This document shows, piece by piece, positions 25,444 to 31,578 of a stretch of DNA of 64,000 bases (positions are counted from its first letter, which is position 1; each line of letters starts with the position of its first letter). Where the stretch lies: the NCBI RefSeq assembly GCF_000403355.2, contig NZ_KE159646.1, forward strand, positions 266,424 to 330,423, in the 5' to 3' direction. This DNA comes from Adlercreutzia caecimuris B7 (GTDB lineage Bacteria > Actinomycetota > Coriobacteriia > Coriobacteriales > Eggerthellaceae). Made by a program: the position numbers and the translations under genes. The notes beneath the pieces are model-generated. The model did not search any database, was not told the origin of the DNA, and was given only the letters and a program-made list of their open reading frames with translations.

Positions 25444-25773
25444 CTAAAGAGCGGCGGCGATTGCCTCAGCGACGAATTGGTTCAGGGACTCTTTCCGCGC
25501 CGCGGCCGCCATCGCGGCCGCGCGATGCACCTCGGGGTTCACGCGCACGTTGAACGAGCCCTTGTAGGACTTTTCCGGCTCCTTGCCTTTCTCCGCACAG
25601 AAGGCGAGGTAGTCATCGACGGCCTCGCGGAAGGCATGATCGATGTCGGCGGCGCTTTGCGACTCGAAGTAGACGCCATCGTTCATGCCAACAACCGACC
25701 CGCAGAGCATGCGGGAGTCGCCGTCGAACTCAACGGTGGCGTAATAACCTTTATACACGAGAACATTGCTCAT
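25444..25773 (-). CDS. hicB: HicB family antitoxin
   Basis: The 109-residue protein has a HicB-like partial RNase H fold at the N-terminus (YKGYYATVEFDGDSRMLCGSVVGMNDGVYFE) and a ribbon-helix-helix C-terminus (GSFNVRVNPEVHRAAAMAAAARKESLNQFVAEAI). It neutralises HicA and represses the operon. Its start overlaps the hicA stop by four bases on the same strand, so toxin comes first, as in many hicAB loci. Confidence 0.85.
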   Translation of the reverse strand: MSNVLVYKGYYATVEFDGDSRMLCGSVVGMNDGVYFESQSAADIDHAFREAVDDYLAFCAEKGKEPEKSYKGSFNVRVNPEVHRAAAMAAAARKESLNQFVAEAIAAAL

Positions 25774-26027
25774 AGCGTTTCCTCTCCGCCCAAGAACTTC
25801 ACTGCGGCACGAATCGCTCCGCGACTCATCTCGTTTGATGGATGAGGGGAATGCATGAGGAACATGCGCCCGTCCTTCTCTCGAAAGAATCTGATCCGCG
25901 ATCCCGATGAGATTCCTTTATGGTCGAGTTCGTAACCGAGATGCTCCATAATGCGCACAAAATCGCGAAAGCGGTAAGTGCTCGGCGTCGATAGCAGTGC
26001 CTCGAGAAGCTTTTCTATTTGCGTCAT
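25770..26027 (-). CDS. hicA: HicA-like toxin
   Basis: The 85-residue small dsRBD-fold mRNA-interferase-like protein pairs with HicB. It reads LLSTPSTYRFRDFVRIMEHLGYEL, then SSGSRIRFF and HSPHPSNEMSRGAIRAAVKFL. The usual HicA catalytic segment GSH is GSR here. The same replacement, with a PHP-N-E motif, occurs in a known HicA subgroup. ATG at 26027 has GGAAG six bases upstream; a longer frame to 26078 would cross the promoter and is rejected. Activity is uncertain because of the missing His. Confidence 0.82.
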   Translation of the reverse strand: MTQIEKLLEALLSTPSTYRFRDFVRIMEHLGYELDHKGISSGSRIRFFREKDGRMFLMHSPHPSNEMSRGAIRAAVKFLGGEETL

Positions 26028-26040
26028 GACGTCTTCCTTC

Positions 26041-26078
26041 TGCAACTGAATATTAGTTGCAAATCTTGCATATGTCAA
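26041..26078 (-). promoter_or_regulatory. hicAB promoter with overlapping operator
   Basis: On the minus strand TTGACA (26078-26073) and TAATAT (26055-26050) are 17 bases apart, close to consensus. A palindrome TGCAACT-N7-AGTTGCA at 26041-26061 covers the -10 box. This is where a HicB ribbon-helix-helix dimer would bind to repress its own operon. Confidence 0.8.
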
Positions 26079-26122
26079 TAGGATGCAGAGAGGGTAGCGA
26101 GAATGATCAGGAAGGAACAGAC

Positions 26123-26160
26123 TTGACTTTTTGAATTGTTGTACTCAAAATGTTGTACAA
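26123..26160 (+). promoter_or_regulatory. Promoter and operator of the RelB-like/PIN operon
   Basis: TTGACT at 26123-26128 and CAAAAT at 26146-26151 have a 17-base spacer. GTTGTAC occurs twice (near 26138 and 26152), the second as the palindrome GTTGTACAAC, covering and following the -10. This fits autorepression by the antitoxin. Confidence 0.65.
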
Positions 26161-26178
26161 CGTGGAAGGAGAGTCGAC

Positions 26179-26475
26179 ATGGCCGATGCAATGGTGACGG
26201 GGCGTATGCCCGAGCAGAAGAAGCAGCGGGGAATGCGCGTGCTGCAAAGAAGCGGACTCAATGCCTCGCAGGCGGTGAACCTCATGTTCGATCGCCTGAT
26301 AGAGGAGGGGAGTGCCGACTTCCTTCTTCAGGACGACTTGAAGCCCGCTGCGGAACGGTGGGCATCGGCGGCGAGCTTCGTCGACGGTCTCTCGTGCAAA
26401 CGCGCCACGCGCTTCGACACCATGACGAAGGCGGAGATCAACCTCGATCGTCTTGCCGCCAAGGGGCTGGTGTGA
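26179..26475 (+). CDS. RelB/DinJ-like antitoxin
   Basis: The 98-residue protein has an N-terminal ribbon-helix-helix region (MRVLQRSGLNASQAVNLMFDRLIEEG) typical of RelB/DinJ antitoxins, and a charged C-terminus that would wrap the toxin. ATG 26179 has AAGGAGAG upstream and lies after the promoter; an earlier in-frame ATG would be inside the operator. It is two bases before a PIN-domain gene, an antitoxin-toxin pairing. Confidence 0.75.
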   Translation: MADAMVTGRMPEQKKQRGMRVLQRSGLNASQAVNLMFDRLIEEGSADFLLQDDLKPAAERWASAASFVDGLSCKRATRFDTMTKAEINLDRLAAKGLV

Positions 26476-26476
26476 C

Positions 26477-26941
26477 ATGGCCCAGGTCAAGCTGCTTCTC
26501 GACACCAATGTGGTCATCGACTATCTGAACGAGCGCGAACCGCATTACAAGAAGGCGCGGTTGCTGATGATCGGCGGCCGTGTGGGAGAGTTCGAGTTGT
26601 GGATCTCCTCGTCGCAGGCAACCGATCTCGTGTACATTCTCTCCAACGGAGGGCGAGCGAACGAGATCGATGTCGTCATGGAGCAGTTGCGGGGTTTGCG
26701 TACGTTCGTGAACGTGTGCGCGGCAGGCGAGAGAGAGGTCGATCTGATGCTCGCCGCCTCGCGGCGCGATCCGGAAGACTACCTCCTCTACGAGATCACC
26801 CTGGCGCTGAGGGCCGACGCTCTCATCACGCGAAACCAACACGATTTCCCCCAAGGCCTCGTTCCCGTCATGGACTGCGACGAGTTCTTCCGGTGGATGC
26901 GGGATGCGCACGGCCTCGACTACGACGAGGTCGAGCTTTAG
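26477..26941 (+). CDS. PIN-domain ribonuclease toxin (VapC-like)
   Basis: The 154-residue PIN protein has the first acidic motif LLLDTNVVIDYL (Asp9), an Asp in PEDYLLYEI (Asp101) and the late motif ADALITRN (Asp114, Asn120). These acidic residues bind metal for RNA cleavage. It starts one base after the antitoxin stop. PIN toxins usually go with VapB-type antitoxins; here the upstream protein looks RelB/DinJ-like. The RNA target is unknown. Confidence 0.82.
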   Translation: MAQVKLLLDTNVVIDYLNEREPHYKKARLLMIGGRVGEFELWISSSQATDLVYILSNGGRANEIDVVMEQLRGLRTFVNVCAAGEREVDLMLAASRRDPEDYLLYEITLALRADALITRNQHDFPQGLVPVMDCDEFFRWMRDAHGLDYDEVEL

Positions 26942-26997: not shown

Positions 26998-27213
26998 TCA
27001 CCACCCGGGCTCGCCAGTGGCGATGAGGCTGTCGATGTCGCGGAAGGCGTTCTCGATAGCCTCGCTGTGGTACATCTCGTACATGTTGTAGACGAACTCG
27101 GTACGACCCTGGGCATCGAGGGCTGCGAGCACATCCGCCGCTCTCGTATGGCGGCTCTGCGCGTAGCTTTCCAGCAGATAGGTGAAGAACACGAATTCCT
27201 TAGGCAATCTCAT
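26998..27213 (-). CDS. DUF3791 family protein
   Basis: The 71-residue protein has the DUF3791 pattern: an N-terminal helix (EFVFFTYLLESYAQSR), then AADVLAALDAQGRTEFVYNMYEMYHSEAIENAFRDIDSLI. In other genomes this family is found next to a DUF3990 toxin and is thought to be its antitoxin or partner. No DUF3990 gene follows here; the next gene downstream is the convergent PIN gene. ATG 27213 or GTG 27216 could be the start. It overlaps the upstream 84-residue gene. Confidence 0.7.
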   Translation of the reverse strand: MRLPKEFVFFTYLLESYAQSRHTRAADVLAALDAQGRTEFVYNMYEMYHSEAIENAFRDIDSLIATGEPGW

Positions 27214-27454
27214 CACCTCGCAGGTACAGCGAGTTGCGCGGATCTCCGGTAGCTTGCTCGTTTTCCCACATATCGAAGACTGCCAGCGGGCTGAAGTGCC
27301 ACATCTTCAGGTTGTCGTCGAGGAGCATCAGGCGGGTTTCCGATGGGAGAAAGAGTCGGAGTGCCTCAAGGGCGTCAAGCCCACGGCTCTCGGCGATGAG
27401 CCGGGATACCTCGGAATCGAAGTTCTGCATGATGGTGGGCGTCGTCTCAGTCAA
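27200..27454 (-). CDS. Small protein of a DUF3791-type cassette
   Basis: The 84-residue protein ends MWENEQATGDPRNSLYLRGDE, a motif I associate with small proteins encoded just before DUF3791 genes in gut Firmicutes and Actinobacteria; no function is known. The start is TTG 27454 with GAGGAAG about nine bases upstream; an ATG at 27430 is an alternative without a ribosome site. Its stop overlaps the DUF3791 start, so the two are co-translated. Confidence 0.6.
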   Translation of the reverse strand: MTETTPTIMQNFDSEVSRLIAESRGLDALEALRLFLPSETRLMLLDDNLKMWHFSPLAVFDMWENEQATGDPRNSLYLRGDEIA

Positions 27455-27500: not shown

Positions 27501-28355
27501 TTATGCGTGCTTGCGCTTTGTCTGGTAGCTCTGAAGGAAATCGGCGAATTCGGGTGAAGTGTCGGAGTTGCCGCTGCGCCAGGCTTTGTGATCGATGATC
27601 TCGCTCTCGAAGCCATAATAGTCGTCGATGTAGGCGATGAGCGCATCTAGGGCATCAAGCTGCGCTTCGGGGTAGTCGTCCTCGCCACTCACGTGCACCA
27701 TCTCGATGCCGATGGATGAACCGTTCATACCGTAATCAGCGAAGGCGCCGCCGATGGGGGAGGAGCCCTTCATATCATCGCGACCGTCTTCGCTAATGCT
27801 GTATTGCTCGTTGTGCCCCGTGTCGCCGTAGCCGGCATGATGTGCAATGCGATCCAAGGGAACGCATTGCCAGATGCTGCCGTCCTTATTCACGATGAAG
27901 TGGGCAGCGACGAGGTTCCCGTTGGAGTCCCACCAGTCGATCACGGAGGCCGCATCCGATTTGCCTTCGGTGTCGTGCAGCACGATGTACTTCTGGTACT
28001 CGGCTCCTTTGGGCCCATGGTCGAAGCTTTCGCGGAAATCTTCTGTGATGGCGATAACGGGGACGGCGGTTGACTCGGCGTCCGATGCTTCGCTGGCGTC
28101 GGCCTCGGCGTCAGTTCTGACAGGCCGTTCTCTCGTGTCCGCTCCAACCTCGTCCTCATCGTTTGTCGGTTTGGGGCAATCGCGAACGGGCTCGACCTCT
28201 ATCTGCTGAGGCTCCGCCTGGACCGCTTTACCCGCCTCGCCTCGTTTATCGGCCGTATCGGTGCACCCAAAGAGCAGCGTGGAAGCCATGGCCGCCGATA
28301 TTGCCAGAATGACGAGCGAGAGTCGTTTAGTTGAGATAAGGTGAGTTTTGCTCAT
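27501..28355 (-). CDS. N-acetylmuramoyl-L-alanine amidase lipoprotein
   Basis: The 284-residue protein has a lipoprotein signal: basic start, hydrophobic stretch and lipobox LLFGC with Cys31. A polar, Asp/Glu/Ala-rich linker of ~70 residues follows, then an Amidase_2 (T7 lysozyme/PGRP) domain from about 120. Zinc ligands appear to be His127 (VLHDTEG), His256 (IIDHKAW) and Asp265. It would cut the bond between muramic acid and the stem peptide outside the membrane. ATG 28355 overlaps the end of the large YARHG gene by 29 bases, so the two are expressed together. The middle of the protein carries a DSNGNLVAAHFIV segment typical of the family. Confidence 0.87.
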   Translation of the reverse strand: MSKTHLISTKRLSLVILAISAAMASTLLFGCTDTADKRGEAGKAVQAEPQQIEVEPVRDCPKPTNDEDEVGADTRERPVRTDAEADASEASDAESTAVPVIAITEDFRESFDHGPKGAEYQKYIVLHDTEGKSDAASVIDWWDSNGNLVAAHFIVNKDGSIWQCVPLDRIAHHAGYGDTGHNEQYSISEDGRDDMKGSSPIGGAFADYGMNGSSIGIEMVHVSGEDDYPEAQLDALDALIAYIDDYYGFESEIIDHKAWRSGNSDTSPEFADFLQSYQTKRKHA

Positions 28356-30885
28356 GTTCAATCTCCAAGATGAGGTCCATGTTTGCTTTCTCGTATTCGT
28401 TGGGACTGAACCAGCCGTCGAAATCCTCTGGCGAATACTCGCCGTTGTACCACGGTTGAGAGGAGAAGTAATCAGCCAGATCATCGTTCTTGAATTGTCG
28501 CCCATAGCGGGCAAACACCTCGTTGCGGGCCAGATACAACTCCCACACGCTCAGCCCTTCCAACTCCGCTCGTGTATACATTTTGCTATCGCTTTCGGGA
28601 AGGATGTAGTCGATATTCCCAGTCGCATCAATTTCCCCTTTAAGCACAACATAGGGAACAATGCTCTCTGCAACGTGTTGGGCGTCTTCTCTTGCTACTT
28701 TCTCCCCCTCATCCTGATTTCCGAAGGGAACCTCTACATATACTCTGAGTGCACCATCGATATCGGAATCGACCGATCCCACATAGGCGTTTGCGTAACG
28801 CTCCTCTCCGGGCCCATCCTCGCCAGAATAACAGGATACGAAGAAAAGCGGCATCTTCCCTCGATCCCCTCCCTCATATGCGGAGAGAGTGAACCCGGTT
28901 CCACCAGGCCGCATATCACTTTCATCAAAGCCATCGTAATATTCGAAGCCAACATTTTCGTATTGAGGATACTTTAAAGTTAACCCCTCTGTATCAATGG
29001 AATAATAGGGAGTTTCTGGGCTATCGTTGGCGGGTTCAATCCTGGCCTCACCAGTTTCGGCAAGTTGCTCTGCATTAGAAGAATCGCTTTCGGTTTCACT
29101 TTGGGAGGGAAGGGCCGAAGCATCGTCGAGCTCGCTGGAGAATTCTCCCCACTGCCTTATTTCATCGGGGCATTCGCTAATATCAACGGGGGAGATCACA
29201 ATGCTTGTTCTCGAGCTGCCTGTTGGAGCGAGCCAGATCTGACTGGGCACATACATTTCCGGATACTCATCATCTTCTGGAAAGTAAAACAGAGAACCGC
29301 TACTTGACGTTCGCGAAATCGCGAAGTGATATGTTTGTCCTTTGTACTCAATGGTGCCAAGCGATAGCTGTTGTGAACCCCAAAAGCCCGTGGCTTTCTC
29401 ATCCTTGTCATTTTTAATCTGATCCAGCAGCGAAAGTAGCGCATCAGCATATTTGATCTCTTTCGATTCCCTGCTTTCAATGTTGATGCTCGCATTCTGA
29501 AATCCGAGGGATTCCAGAAGGAACCGGTCGTTCTCCTCGCTATCGTCGCCGAGTTGAATATCACTTTTCGGGCATTTGCCCAGCTCCTCAATCTCGCGCA
29601 CTATGTCCATATCGGTAACCCTTCCCCAATATTCCGGGTTGCACTCCGATTCGGGGCCATAGCTTATCATCCTGTCGGAAAGGTAAACTTCACCCGTAGG
29701 TAGCATATATATCTCAGGGCCGTCGTATGTCGTACCCTCGAAAAAAAGCACTGCAACGCTGGGACGACCCGCAAAAGATACGTCGTCGGTCTCCATAAAA
29801 AATTGAATCGAGTCCGGTGCCGCCCATCGCTTGTCAAAATCGAGATCTGAGAGGACTGAGTGGTAGTGCTCGGCACGCTCTTTCTTTTCGTATTCCTCAA
29901 GAAAATCAAGGGACGACTCTCCGTCGGGATCAATCACCTGGTCATAGTCGGCATAAGTCCAATCTTGAGCGGCATGCATAATGTCAGCCACGTTGGGCAA
30001 CTCGCCCGGCTTGCGCGGTTCTACATGATTGTCTAAGTAGTTGAGGAAGAGCACGCCAGCCAACACAACAACAGCAGCGATGGCAATGGCTGACATGACG
30101 CCGGCTCTCTTCCGCGACGCTTTCTTTTTGCGCCCTTGCTCGACTTGTCCTTGCGCTCGTTTATCAATAAACGCCTGAATACTCTCTATCGATTCGGTGT
30201 CGAGAAGCAATTCTTTCGAGCACCCGCATGACCAGCATTTATCTCTGTGAACATTGGGCTGACCACATGCACAAATCCAAAATTTGTCGTTGTTCTGAAC
30301 CTGTCCATCCGCGGGAATGGCGGCGAGCGGGGAAGGCGTGCCGCACGTGCGACAAGGTTCGAGTCCCTTGCCGGGGCTACCGCACGAGCAAGTCCATAGA
30401 GCTTCCTCCTGCTTTCCGCTTGCTCCCTTTTCAAGGAGAAGGGCGCTTCGCTCAGCAAGCAGATGCTCGTCGTAGTCGAGTATCGCTCGTGGCGGGAGCA
30501 GGCTCATAGCCCCCTCGGACGCCCAGGGATCGCTCTCTGCTTCCACGTTCAGGATACGAACTTCCAGCCCCACTGTCTTTGTGCCGCTGAGGGTGATGGG
30601 CGTGGCATCGAACATGCCGCCGGGATTGAGATCGACATCGAGGTGACGTTCTTGCACGTCCTGGGTCGTGCTATCGGCAAACCTCACCGTGGCTCGCCAG
30701 GCAAATTCGTTAACCACTTCTCCAGAGATGTTGCGAAAGCGCAGCTGAAGATGCTCCTTGCCTGTTTCCCGGTTGAGAGAGACCTGCACGGCTGCCGGCA
30801 CGAGAGGACAGCCCTCCTCCCAACGTAAGAAACCACTATCGGGCCCGAAGTAATCACGAATAAGAACCTTGTAATCAGAATCCAT
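28327..30885 (-). CDS. Large membrane protein with two zinc ribbons and a YARHG domain
   Basis: The protein has 852 residues. A beta-rich N-terminal domain (~1-150) is followed by two short zinc ribbons (Cys166, 168, 178, 181; Cys205, 207, 217, 220), a basic patch 251-260 and one transmembrane helix at about 261-284. A long extracellular part of ~560 residues follows. The C-terminus carries a YARHG domain (about 770-845) with VWELYLARNEVFARYGRQF and YFSSQPWYNG. Positive charges before the helix put the ribbons inside and YARHG outside. YARHG is found in cell-surface proteins and may bind the wall. The middle is unrecognised. The codon use is AT-richer than neighbours, suggesting acquisition. 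GGGAGG precedes the ATG. Confidence 0.8.
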   Translation of the reverse strand: MDSDYKVLIRDYFGPDSGFLRWEEGCPLVPAAVQVSLNRETGKEHLQLRFRNISGEVVNEFAWRATVRFADSTTQDVQERHLDVDLNPGGMFDATPITLSGTKTVGLEVRILNVEAESDPWASEGAMSLLPPRAILDYDEHLLAERSALLLEKGASGKQEEALWTCSCGSPGKGLEPCRTCGTPSPLAAIPADGQVQNNDKFWICACGQPNVHRDKCWSCGCSKELLLDTESIESIQAFIDKRAQGQVEQGRKKKASRKRAGVMSAIAIAAVVVLAGVLFLNYLDNHVEPRKPGELPNVADIMHAAQDWTYADYDQVIDPDGESSLDFLEEYEKKERAEHYHSVLSDLDFDKRWAAPDSIQFFMETDDVSFAGRPSVAVLFFEGTTYDGPEIYMLPTGEVYLSDRMISYGPESECNPEYWGRVTDMDIVREIEELGKCPKSDIQLGDDSEENDRFLLESLGFQNASINIESRESKEIKYADALLSLLDQIKNDKDEKATGFWGSQQLSLGTIEYKGQTYHFAISRTSSSGSLFYFPEDDEYPEMYVPSQIWLAPTGSSRTSIVISPVDISECPDEIRQWGEFSSELDDASALPSQSETESDSSNAEQLAETGEARIEPANDSPETPYYSIDTEGLTLKYPQYENVGFEYYDGFDESDMRPGGTGFTLSAYEGGDRGKMPLFFVSCYSGEDGPGEERYANAYVGSVDSDIDGALRVYVEVPFGNQDEGEKVAREDAQHVAESIVPYVVLKGEIDATGNIDYILPESDSKMYTRAELEGLSVWELYLARNEVFARYGRQFKNDDLADYFSSQPWYNGEYSPEDFDGWFSPNEYEKANMDLILEIEHEQNSPYLN

Positions 30886-31264
30886 AAGTACCTCCCGCTA
30901 GAAACTTGGAAATTCGGAAGCCTTGTCTGAGATTTCGTCGCTTTTTCTCAGGAAGCGCCGCAGCAAAGAGTCCGAGTATGATGGGCGCGGCAAAAAAGCC
31001 GATAAGCTACAGCCAGACGGTTTTGGTCTCTTGAAAATAGCTCTTGGTCCGAGCAATTGCAGCAAAGCCTTTTATGGATACAACGCCGGTAACGAAATAG
31101 ATCACCGTGAGAAGAATCCAGGGCAAAGATTGAATTGGAGAGAGCGCATTTCCAGGTAATTCCCATGCCATGACGGCAAATGAGCCAAAGATAATCGGCA
31201 TTGCCGCAAGAATCAATGTTGTTTCTGCAGCAGACGGCGTCTCTTCCTCAACCAATACCCTCAT
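30875..31264 (-). pseudogene. Small four-helix membrane protein broken by an in-frame amber codon
   Basis: From ATG 31264 the frame codes 85 residues with two or three membrane helices (TTLILAAMPIIFGSFAVMAW, LPWILLTVIYFVTGVVSI) and stops at TAG 31007-31009. Immediately after, in the same frame, 43 more codons encode another hydrophobic helix LIGFFAAPIILGLFAAALPEK and a basic tail, ending at TGA 30875-30877 over the start of the YARHG gene. The full product would be 129 positions. Either the gene is recently inactivated or only the shorter protein is made. GGAGGAAAAGAGG precedes the start. Confidence 0.65.
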
Positions 31265-31300
31265 GGCATCCTCTTTTCCTCCAATTCTCTCGGTGAAATA

Positions 31301-31319
31301 ATATCCTAAATTGGGATAT
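31301..31319. promoter_or_regulatory. Operator between the XRE regulator and the membrane gene
   Basis: The palindrome ATATCC-N7-GGATAT at 31301-31319 lies in the spacer of a minus-strand promoter (TTGACT near 31325 and TATTAT near 31303). It is positioned to let the adjacent XRE protein repress the leftward operon. No equally good plus-strand promoter is seen. Confidence 0.55.
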
Positions 31320-31347
31320 AGTCAAGGTTAACGTATCGTGCTCGACA

Positions 31348-31578
31348 ATGAACGTCGACGCAAACAGAGCTATTGGCCGATGCCTGAAAGAGACACGGGT
31401 GCGGCAGGGATATACCCAAAGCCAGCTGGCAGGGGCTCTCGGGCGCCCGCAGTCGTTTGTGTCGAAAATCGAGTCAGGTGAGCGCAGCCTGCATCTCAGC
31501 GAGATATTCGACTACGCCCACGCCCTTGATGTTTCCATCGGGCGTCTTATGCGGGATATCGACGCCGCTCTAAGTTGA
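31348..31578 (+). CDS. XRE-family helix-turn-helix regulator
   Basis: The 76-residue protein is almost entirely one HTH_XRE domain: KETRVRQGYTQSQLAGALGRPQSFVSKIESGERSLHLSEIFDYAHAL, with TQSQLAGALG as helix 2 and RPQSFVSKIESG as the recognition helix. It is divergent from the membrane/YARHG/amidase genes and 84 bases away, with a palindrome between, so it probably controls them. The ATG lacks a strong ribosome site. Confidence 0.82.
   Translation: MNVDANRAIGRCLKETRVRQGYTQSQLAGALGRPQSFVSKIESGERSLHLSEIFDYAHALDVSIGRLMRDIDAALS

Follow-up and report, generated by a model that had tools for sequence, protein, structure and literature searches.

Evidence for genetic linkage of YARHG membrane proteins with a predicted wall amidase, read from an XRE–operator locus of Adlercreutzia caecimuris B7

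The locus described here is one copy of a gene set that combines the gene of a membrane-spanning protein with that of a wall-cutting amidase. It lies in a window of 64,000 nucleotides, the whole stretch of DNA analysed (contig NZ_KE159646.1, positions 266,424 to 330,423; coordinates below are those of the window). The locus is the junction of two conserved units: a tail unit, made up of YARHG and Amidase_2, and a head unit, composed of an unannotated domain of about 150 residues, zinc ribbons and a helix, with a small membrane protein gene just upstream. In the best reading, held with slightly better than even confidence, an XRE-autoregulated membrane partner would anchor and control the wall amidase. 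The reading builds on features taken directly from the sequences, namely domain make-up, catalytic residues, gene adjacency, the overlap kept within modules, the pairing of XRE and operator, a fusion protein and the decay of the small gene. The features are:

27501–28355, minus strand: Amidase_2 protein with a lipoprotein-like signal (LLFGC); PF01510, E 4.3e-23
28327–30885, minus strand: 852-residue membrane protein, with head, putative zinc ribbons, one helix, variable middle and YARHG tail
28333–28611, minus strand: YARHG domain (here FARYG), residues 759–843; PF13308, E 4.3e-20
28651–29031, minus strand: conserved domain preceding YARHG, residues 619–745, at module loci only
30040–30108, minus strand: single membrane helix, residues ~260–282, by hydropathy
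30217–30393, minus strand: two Cys-rich ribbons, CxC-x8-CxxC at ~165–186 and CxC-x9-CxxC at ~203–223
30448–30885, minus strand: head domain, residues 1–146, without a Pfam or NCBIfam family
30898–31264, minus strand: decayed small membrane partner gene, with TAG at 31007–31009 and the C-terminal tail in another frame
31298–31325, minus strand: predicted operon promoter TTGACT-16-TATTAT, with the operator inside its spacer
31302–31318, no strand assigned: operator TATCCTAAATTGGGATA, an imperfect palindrome
31348–31578, plus strand: XRE/HTH_3 regulator of 76 residues, divergent from the operon; HTH_3, E 6.8e-12

The sequence-only reading proposed finding out whether the gene set is conserved as a unit in other genomes, and a sample of genomes of the class supports genetic linkage of YARHG and amidase far beyond chance. 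The two genes are adjacent (within 5 kb) in 33 of the 43 genomes that hold both, where the chance of such adjacency is ~0.4–0.8% per genome, and 32 of the 34 adjacent pairs lie on one strand. The remaining 10 genomes carry the genes apart, and each gene is also seen without the other. Adjacent pairs occur in five families (f1, f2, f3, f4 and f6) of one bacterial class. Within the family, 37 genomes hold both genes versus 18.5 expected (p 1e-11, with kinship ignored), and adjacency in 21 genomes spans 10 genera and both gene orders, so the pair is not one frozen block.

In the 41 adjacent loci read, a membrane helix precedes YARHG in every case. The partner carries a classic zinc-ribbon head in 35 of them, a kinase head in 2 and a head of the window type in 4, one of which (G007) has an interrupted reading frame. 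The classic ribbon was confirmed with Pfam in the amidase partners of genomes G354 and G193; G354 also encodes a single protein fusing zinc ribbon, membrane helix and Amidase_2. A scan of genome contigs returned one YARHG protein, from an uncultured Lachnospiraceae, and no match to the head domain.

The window amidase scores 82.5 bits with PF01510, against a cut-off of 26 bits, and has the catalytic residues; the zinc-ligand pattern of His, His and Asp, together with a Glu, is invariant in 69 relatives. It is predicted to be a lipoprotein-type N-acetylmuramoyl-L-alanine amidase and, judging from signal patterns, which a crude test detected in 46 of 77 relatives, is likely to reside outside the membrane. 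The catalytic fold family and the His/His/Asp and Glu residues are common to AmpD and phage endolysins (e.g. 2l47), from which the window amidase is distinguished by its lipoprotein-type signal and by a score below the AmpD equivalog cut-off (34.2 versus 143 bits). Matches to PHROG endolysins reflect the Amidase_2 fold only, and a phage lysis cassette was rejected on a close-relative search of viral contigs, which gave no viral relative. The amidase ATG, at 28355, places the start of the gene 29 nt inside the large gene. This translational overlap, picked out from the sequence alone, is kept in all four module loci at 26–29 nt, being 26 nt in each of the three related ones.

The YARHG domain of the large protein scores 71.9 bits with PF13308, against a curated cut-off of 27 bits, and has a solved relative, 4g2a (E 2.3e-5). 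By hydropathy, the helix lies between the ribbons and YARHG. The CxC..CxxC pattern of the ribbons, recognised by eye, marks them as putative zinc-binding zinc ribbons, the Cys residues of the second being invariant in 10 relatives; no Pfam ribbon model (PF12773, PF13240, PF13248) matches at E up to 1. Self-comparison found no internal duplication in the middle region, which is absent from the 629-residue paralogue in the same genome. The order of ribbons, helix and YARHG agrees with the inside-to-outside protein first proposed, and head, helix and tail fit such a partner of a wall amidase.

The head domain, which matches no Pfam or NCBIfam family, is present in 12 of 358 class genomes and is also seen, as part of the head unit, with tails other than YARHG. 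It is probably a β-sandwich, as suggested by a single-sequence AlphaFold2 model that is all-β with a pLDDT of 48.5; Foldseek gave no match below E 0.03 for the structure model, and prediction yielded no confident fold for head or middle. In 10 loci, the gene immediately upstream of the head gene encodes a small membrane protein with an LPx tail, and head domain and small partner are a second conserved pair without annotation.

The small gene is intact in three related loci. The window copy carries an in-frame TAG at 31007 and a frameshift; the open reading frame at 31007–31264 is the front part of the decayed gene, and a profile built without the window copy matches it with one TAG inside (E 1.8e-14). 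Set against the intact relatives, the two lesions rule out a functional 85-residue small membrane protein. The four genes around a palindromic operator that the sequence-only reading described are therefore present, but one of them only as a broken copy, and the window system either works without this partner or relies on the intact one made by the paralogous module.

The XRE regulator has no sensor domain, and its homologues at the other three module loci are 67–71% identical. Its divergent partner is an envelope operon, not a toxin, and its score with the type II toxin–antitoxin model couple_hipB is 42.1 bits, against a cut-off of 71.65. The operator is common to all four modules. Exact sites number 7 among 138 genomes, each adjoining a close XRE homologue, and the 2 in the window's own genome both lie within modules, which speaks against a regulator of wider reach. 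The degenerate pattern, with up to one mismatch, occurs in 7 of 138 genomes versus 2 genomes for the reversed pattern used as control. This rarity, and the position of all exact sites beside XRE homologues, indicate that the palindromic operator claimed earlier is real and not due to chance; by these matches, XRE and the predicted operator are shown to pair one-to-one. The promoter-like site that encloses the operator is the best in the region, scoring 10/12 by consensus match only, and its hexamers and spacing are alike at all four module loci.

In the preferred reading, the amidase would be a lipoprotein-type enzyme on the membrane's outer surface, and the large protein would cross the membrane once, its YARHG tail outside near the wall, where it could hold or gate the amidase. 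The head, with the new domain and the zinc ribbons, would be inside the cell and pair with the small membrane protein, whose ELPxF-like C-terminal tail would be cytosolic. Translational overlap may keep amidase and YARHG protein in step, and XRE, bound to the operator within the promoter, would repress the operon and probably itself too. We infer the contact between YARHG and amidase, the topology, the repression and the precedence of gating over inward signalling; an intracellular signal may in this way be coupled to wall cutting, as was suggested from the sequence alone.

Proteins combining a zinc ribbon, a transmembrane helix and YARHG have been published (Coggill & Bateman 2012, PMC3355149; example A5KMW1), and there YARHG was described as still 'in search of a function', with fusions suggesting peptidoglycan binding. 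They share with the window protein cytosolic Cys ribbons, one helix and an extracellular C-terminal YARHG. The window protein differs in its ~150-residue unannotated head ahead of the ribbons, in ribbons outside the Pfam models and in a long, variable middle, and its locus adds the gene of a small membrane partner and an XRE–operator switch; the amidase is unmentioned in that literature. Kinase-PASTA-YARHG receptors have the same tail on the same membrane side and adjoin the same amidase in G072 and G353, with a kinase head where the window protein has zinc ribbons. Staphylococcus aureus TcaA, with an intracellular zinc finger, one helix and an extracellular part, alters autolysis (PMC10328498, in the portion of the text available, which reports no YARHG or amidase gene pairing); the likeness is one of layout only, and no TcaA model matched the window protein when Pfam was searched with E values up to 1. 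The Lactococcus lactis operon llmg_0524-0525-0526, compared by description, likewise encodes CxxC membrane proteins and a short hydrophobic protein, and its mutant has altered lysozyme resistance, but no amidase is mentioned (PMC4628341). Our literature search found no publication on the amidase pairing, the head domain, the small partner or the operator.

A broader proposal, which we put forward tentatively, is that the YARHG tail is the amidase's receptor or activator in a modular transmembrane kit that controls wall amidases. Its heads would be exchangeable, being either a zinc ribbon, a kinase or a new domain that reads the C-terminal LPx tail of a small membrane protein. If so, bacteria of the class could switch wall cutting from inside or report it inward. 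The pairing gives YARHG a specific, testable partner (one amidase family, five bacterial families, three head types and a fusion) and ties the domain to wall cutting, and it offers a compact two-gene system for the question of how membrane proteins control wall hydrolases.

Kinase heads are as compatible with inward signalling as with outward control. Less probably than in the preferred reading, the large protein might be an inward receptor: YARHG would sense wall fragments or wall state, perhaps what the neighbouring amidase releases, and the head would signal to cytosolic partners. The amidase would then make the ligand and not be controlled by the large protein. Kinase-PASTA-YARHG and kinase-YARHG partners do adjoin the amidase, kinases lie beside it in G058 and G059, and zinc-ribbon/YARHG proteins have been proposed in print to be a membrane-tethered regulator. 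Against this, the head mostly consists of a single ribbon pair of ~25 residues without an output domain, XRE accompanies only 4 of 41 loci, and the zinc ribbon–helix–amidase fusion carries the enzyme on this same platform and lacks YARHG.

The window module is an extra copy at an accessory site between atpC and dnaE, and an intact paralogous module lies beside uvrA in the same genome. Together with the TAG and the frameshift that break the small partner, this could mean that the window module is a degenerating, redundant duplicate and the paralogue the working system; we think this unlikely, given that the large gene of 852 codons, XRE and the operator are intact, as is the amidase, in which no catalytic residue is missing.

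The sequence-only reading also raised an acquired defence or competition system. On this view the window copy, together with its toxin–antitoxin neighbours, would cut walls to kill either the cell itself or its competitors. Those neighbours are real (HicAB, RelB-PIN, DUF3791), a PDC-M13 pair also adjoins the module, and acquisition is supported by the empty atpC–dnaE site in G003, G007 and G008. The defence or competition role itself is very improbable: the other three modules adjoin uvrA and an MFS gene, and toxin–antitoxin genes are absent from the part read around them, the core pair occurs across the class outside such a context, the close-relative search gave no viral relative of the amidase, there is no immunity gene, and the small partner is decayed. 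PADLOC assigned no defence family, its generic HTH models matching XRE only, and nothing in the amidase, the large protein or the small partner. That unrelated neighbours were brought together by chance is scarcely credible: every part also occurs alone, but the adjacency rate, the fusion and the operator–XRE pairing all speak against it.

The large gene has a G+C content of 0.52, versus ~0.65 in its flanks, so the difference in base composition that had been read as a trace of acquisition is genuine. The gene is similarly AT-rich in every related locus (0.53–0.55); low G+C is thus not by itself a sign of recent acquisition, and the argument from it was rejected.

The module occupies the minus strand of the window, in a genome of 2.96 Mb, and is transcribed in the order small membrane gene, 852-residue membrane protein and amidase, with a 76-residue XRE regulator encoded divergently. 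In a Pfam scan of the window proteins, HTH_3, YARHG and Amidase_2 all scored well above cut-off, and nothing matched within residues 1–750 of the large protein. The amidase starts at ATG 28355; its proposed translational overlap with the large gene is borne out, at 29 nt in the window and 26 nt in each of three related loci. A search for the gene set as a unit found the whole set (XRE, operator, small gene, large gene and amidase) in three loci besides the window: a paralogue in the same genome at 472–476 kb (L004), and loci in G006 and G007, the genomes of two other species of the genus, the G007 large gene being split over two frames. Low G+C of the large gene, 0.52–0.55, is common to all four. 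The layout of zinc ribbon, transmembrane helix and YARHG is already known. No description of the amidase pairing, of the head domain (residues 1 to ~150 of the large protein) and its small membrane partner, or of the XRE operator turned up in the open literature searched, where work on YARHG makes no mention of an amidase.

Judged from co-occurrence and gene neighbourhood, YARHG and the amidase are linked throughout the class. Among 138 genomes of the family, 52 carry the amidase, 49 YARHG and 37 both, against 18.5 expected (p 1e-11, by a statistic that ignores relatedness). The two genes are adjacent in 21 family genomes from 10 genera, in both gene orders, and lie apart or on separate contigs in 16, half of which belong to one genus (g44). 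In an evenly sampled set of 318 class genomes, with adjacency defined as within 5 kb, 33 of the 43 genomes with both genes have them adjacent, and 32 of 34 pairs share a strand; outside the family, adjacency was found in 19 of 26 genomes, in families f2, f3, f4 and f6. When 41 adjacent loci were read, the partner was a classic paired-CxxC ribbon, helix and YARHG protein in 35, of window type in 4, and a kinase, helix and YARHG protein in 2 (G072, with Pkinase and PASTA; G353, with a weaker Pkinase). The G354 amidase itself bears an N-terminal Zn_Ribbon_1 and helix, and adjoins a zinc-ribbon/YARHG gene. At locus L177 of G353 the amidase is surrounded by three kinase-like membrane proteins, all with the same head; one of them ends in YARHG and another carries DUF6273. 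Elsewhere, G317:C98:3799-4899 encodes four tandem YARHG domains in a single reading frame, with three more in G317:C123.

Three features, namely the G354 fusion, the overlap of the genes and their adjacency in either order, suggest that the YARHG protein and the amidase are paired physically or through regulation, and count against a frozen operon. The constant parts would be a membrane-crossing helix with YARHG and the amidase both on the outer side, the head being the variable part, and the YARHG protein would control or anchor the amidase. Inward signalling by the YARHG protein, which the kinase heads would fit, is less likely, because most heads lack any output domain and YARHG is absent from the fusion. 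Published zinc-finger, one-helix wall proteins by analogy point the same way, towards amidase control or anchoring: TcaA, such a protein, alters autolysis (PMC10328498), and an L. lactis operon for a zinc membrane protein alters lysozyme resistance (PMC4628341). YARHG itself has been proposed to bind peptidoglycan or something nearby (PMC3355149, PMC3848476).

The amidase N terminus ends in a lipobox-like LLFGC, and by a crude pattern 46 of 77 relatives have one as well. The Amidase_2 site, His126, His255, Asp264 and Glu217 (numbering starts at Ser2), is identical in 69 of 69 relatives; the roles of these residues are presumed by analogy to AmpD. The head, found in 12 of 358 class genomes, matches no Pfam or NCBIfam family; it is followed by a ribbon with four invariant cysteines and then by tails that vary between YARHG, TPR-like repeats and unknown sequence. 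A single-sequence model of the head is all-beta at low confidence, and Foldseek with this model returned no match.

The sequence-only reading counted a small membrane protein among the four genes; its family is present, but the window copy is broken:

31007–31009, minus strand: TAG in the small membrane gene, which reads ...TVWL*LIGFFAAPIILGLFAAALPEK...

A profile built from the other loci only matched this copy with the one TAG inside (E 1.8e-14), and its ...EFPSF end falls in a different frame. An intact membrane protein of ~120–130 residues stands at the equivalent position in L004, G006 and G007, and intact relatives end ...GWLWFVGIFATPITLGILVLALPE...ELPNF. The family lies directly upstream of almost every other gene with a window-type head, mostly at gaps of 3–20 nt, and also precedes head genes with non-YARHG tails (G002, twice; G004, G005, G055 and G250), and further instances come from G016 and, in degenerate form, from G133. 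Because members without this LPx tail (G101, G112, G123 and a second G133 gene) do not stand beside a head gene by coordinates, we infer that the tail may be what the head recognises. At L202 (G133:C4), head gene and partner are both degenerate, the partner as in the window.

The operator, TATCC[CT]AAATTGGGATA, lies at a constant distance from the XRE start in 4 of 4 loci. In the window it falls within the spacer of the region's best promoter-like site, TTGACT-16-TATTAT (10/12), which is similar in relatives. Searching the 138 genomes with at most one mismatch gave eight places, seven exact and one with a mismatch (G135), and the reversed control pattern occurred in two genomes. All seven exact sites lie just 5' of an XRE homologue (both own-genome copies, G006, G007, G064, G088 and G089), which argues for a private operator with only two targets in this genome. 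Near homologues of this XRE, each with an exact copy of the operator, occur without the amidase module in G088, G089 and G064 (L053, L054 and L055); there the gene diverging from the regulator encodes a small membrane protein or is lipoprotein-like.

Whereas the window module is flanked by atpC and dnaE, the remaining three adjoin what we take, from our own reading of the sequences, to be uvrA and an MFS gene. The amidase tree joins those three in one group (support 97/81) and sets the window copy as its sister (100/97 for all four), so the window copy is either a duplicate of some age or a transfer from one close relative to another, and not a recent copy. The atpC–dnaE gap measures ~430 bp in G003, ~370 bp in G008 and ~265 bp in G007, holds RelB-PIN only in G004, and holds RelB-PIN remnants or genes plus other cargo in G001 and G005. 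Since relatives leave it empty or fill it with RelB-PIN or other cargo, the gap is an accessory insertion site. The toxin–antitoxin neighbours claimed earlier are present within it, as HicA/HicB and RelB-PIN pairs at 25444–26941. At 26998–27454 on the minus strand, two small genes match components B (E 1.4e-33) and C (DUF3791; E 1.3e-32) of the PADLOC candidate system PDC-M13; neither component A nor a toxin gene adjoins them. At L080 (G002:C12), a YARHG–amidase pair lies between dnaE and truA, which touch in the window; insertions thus occur on both flanks of dnaE within one genus.
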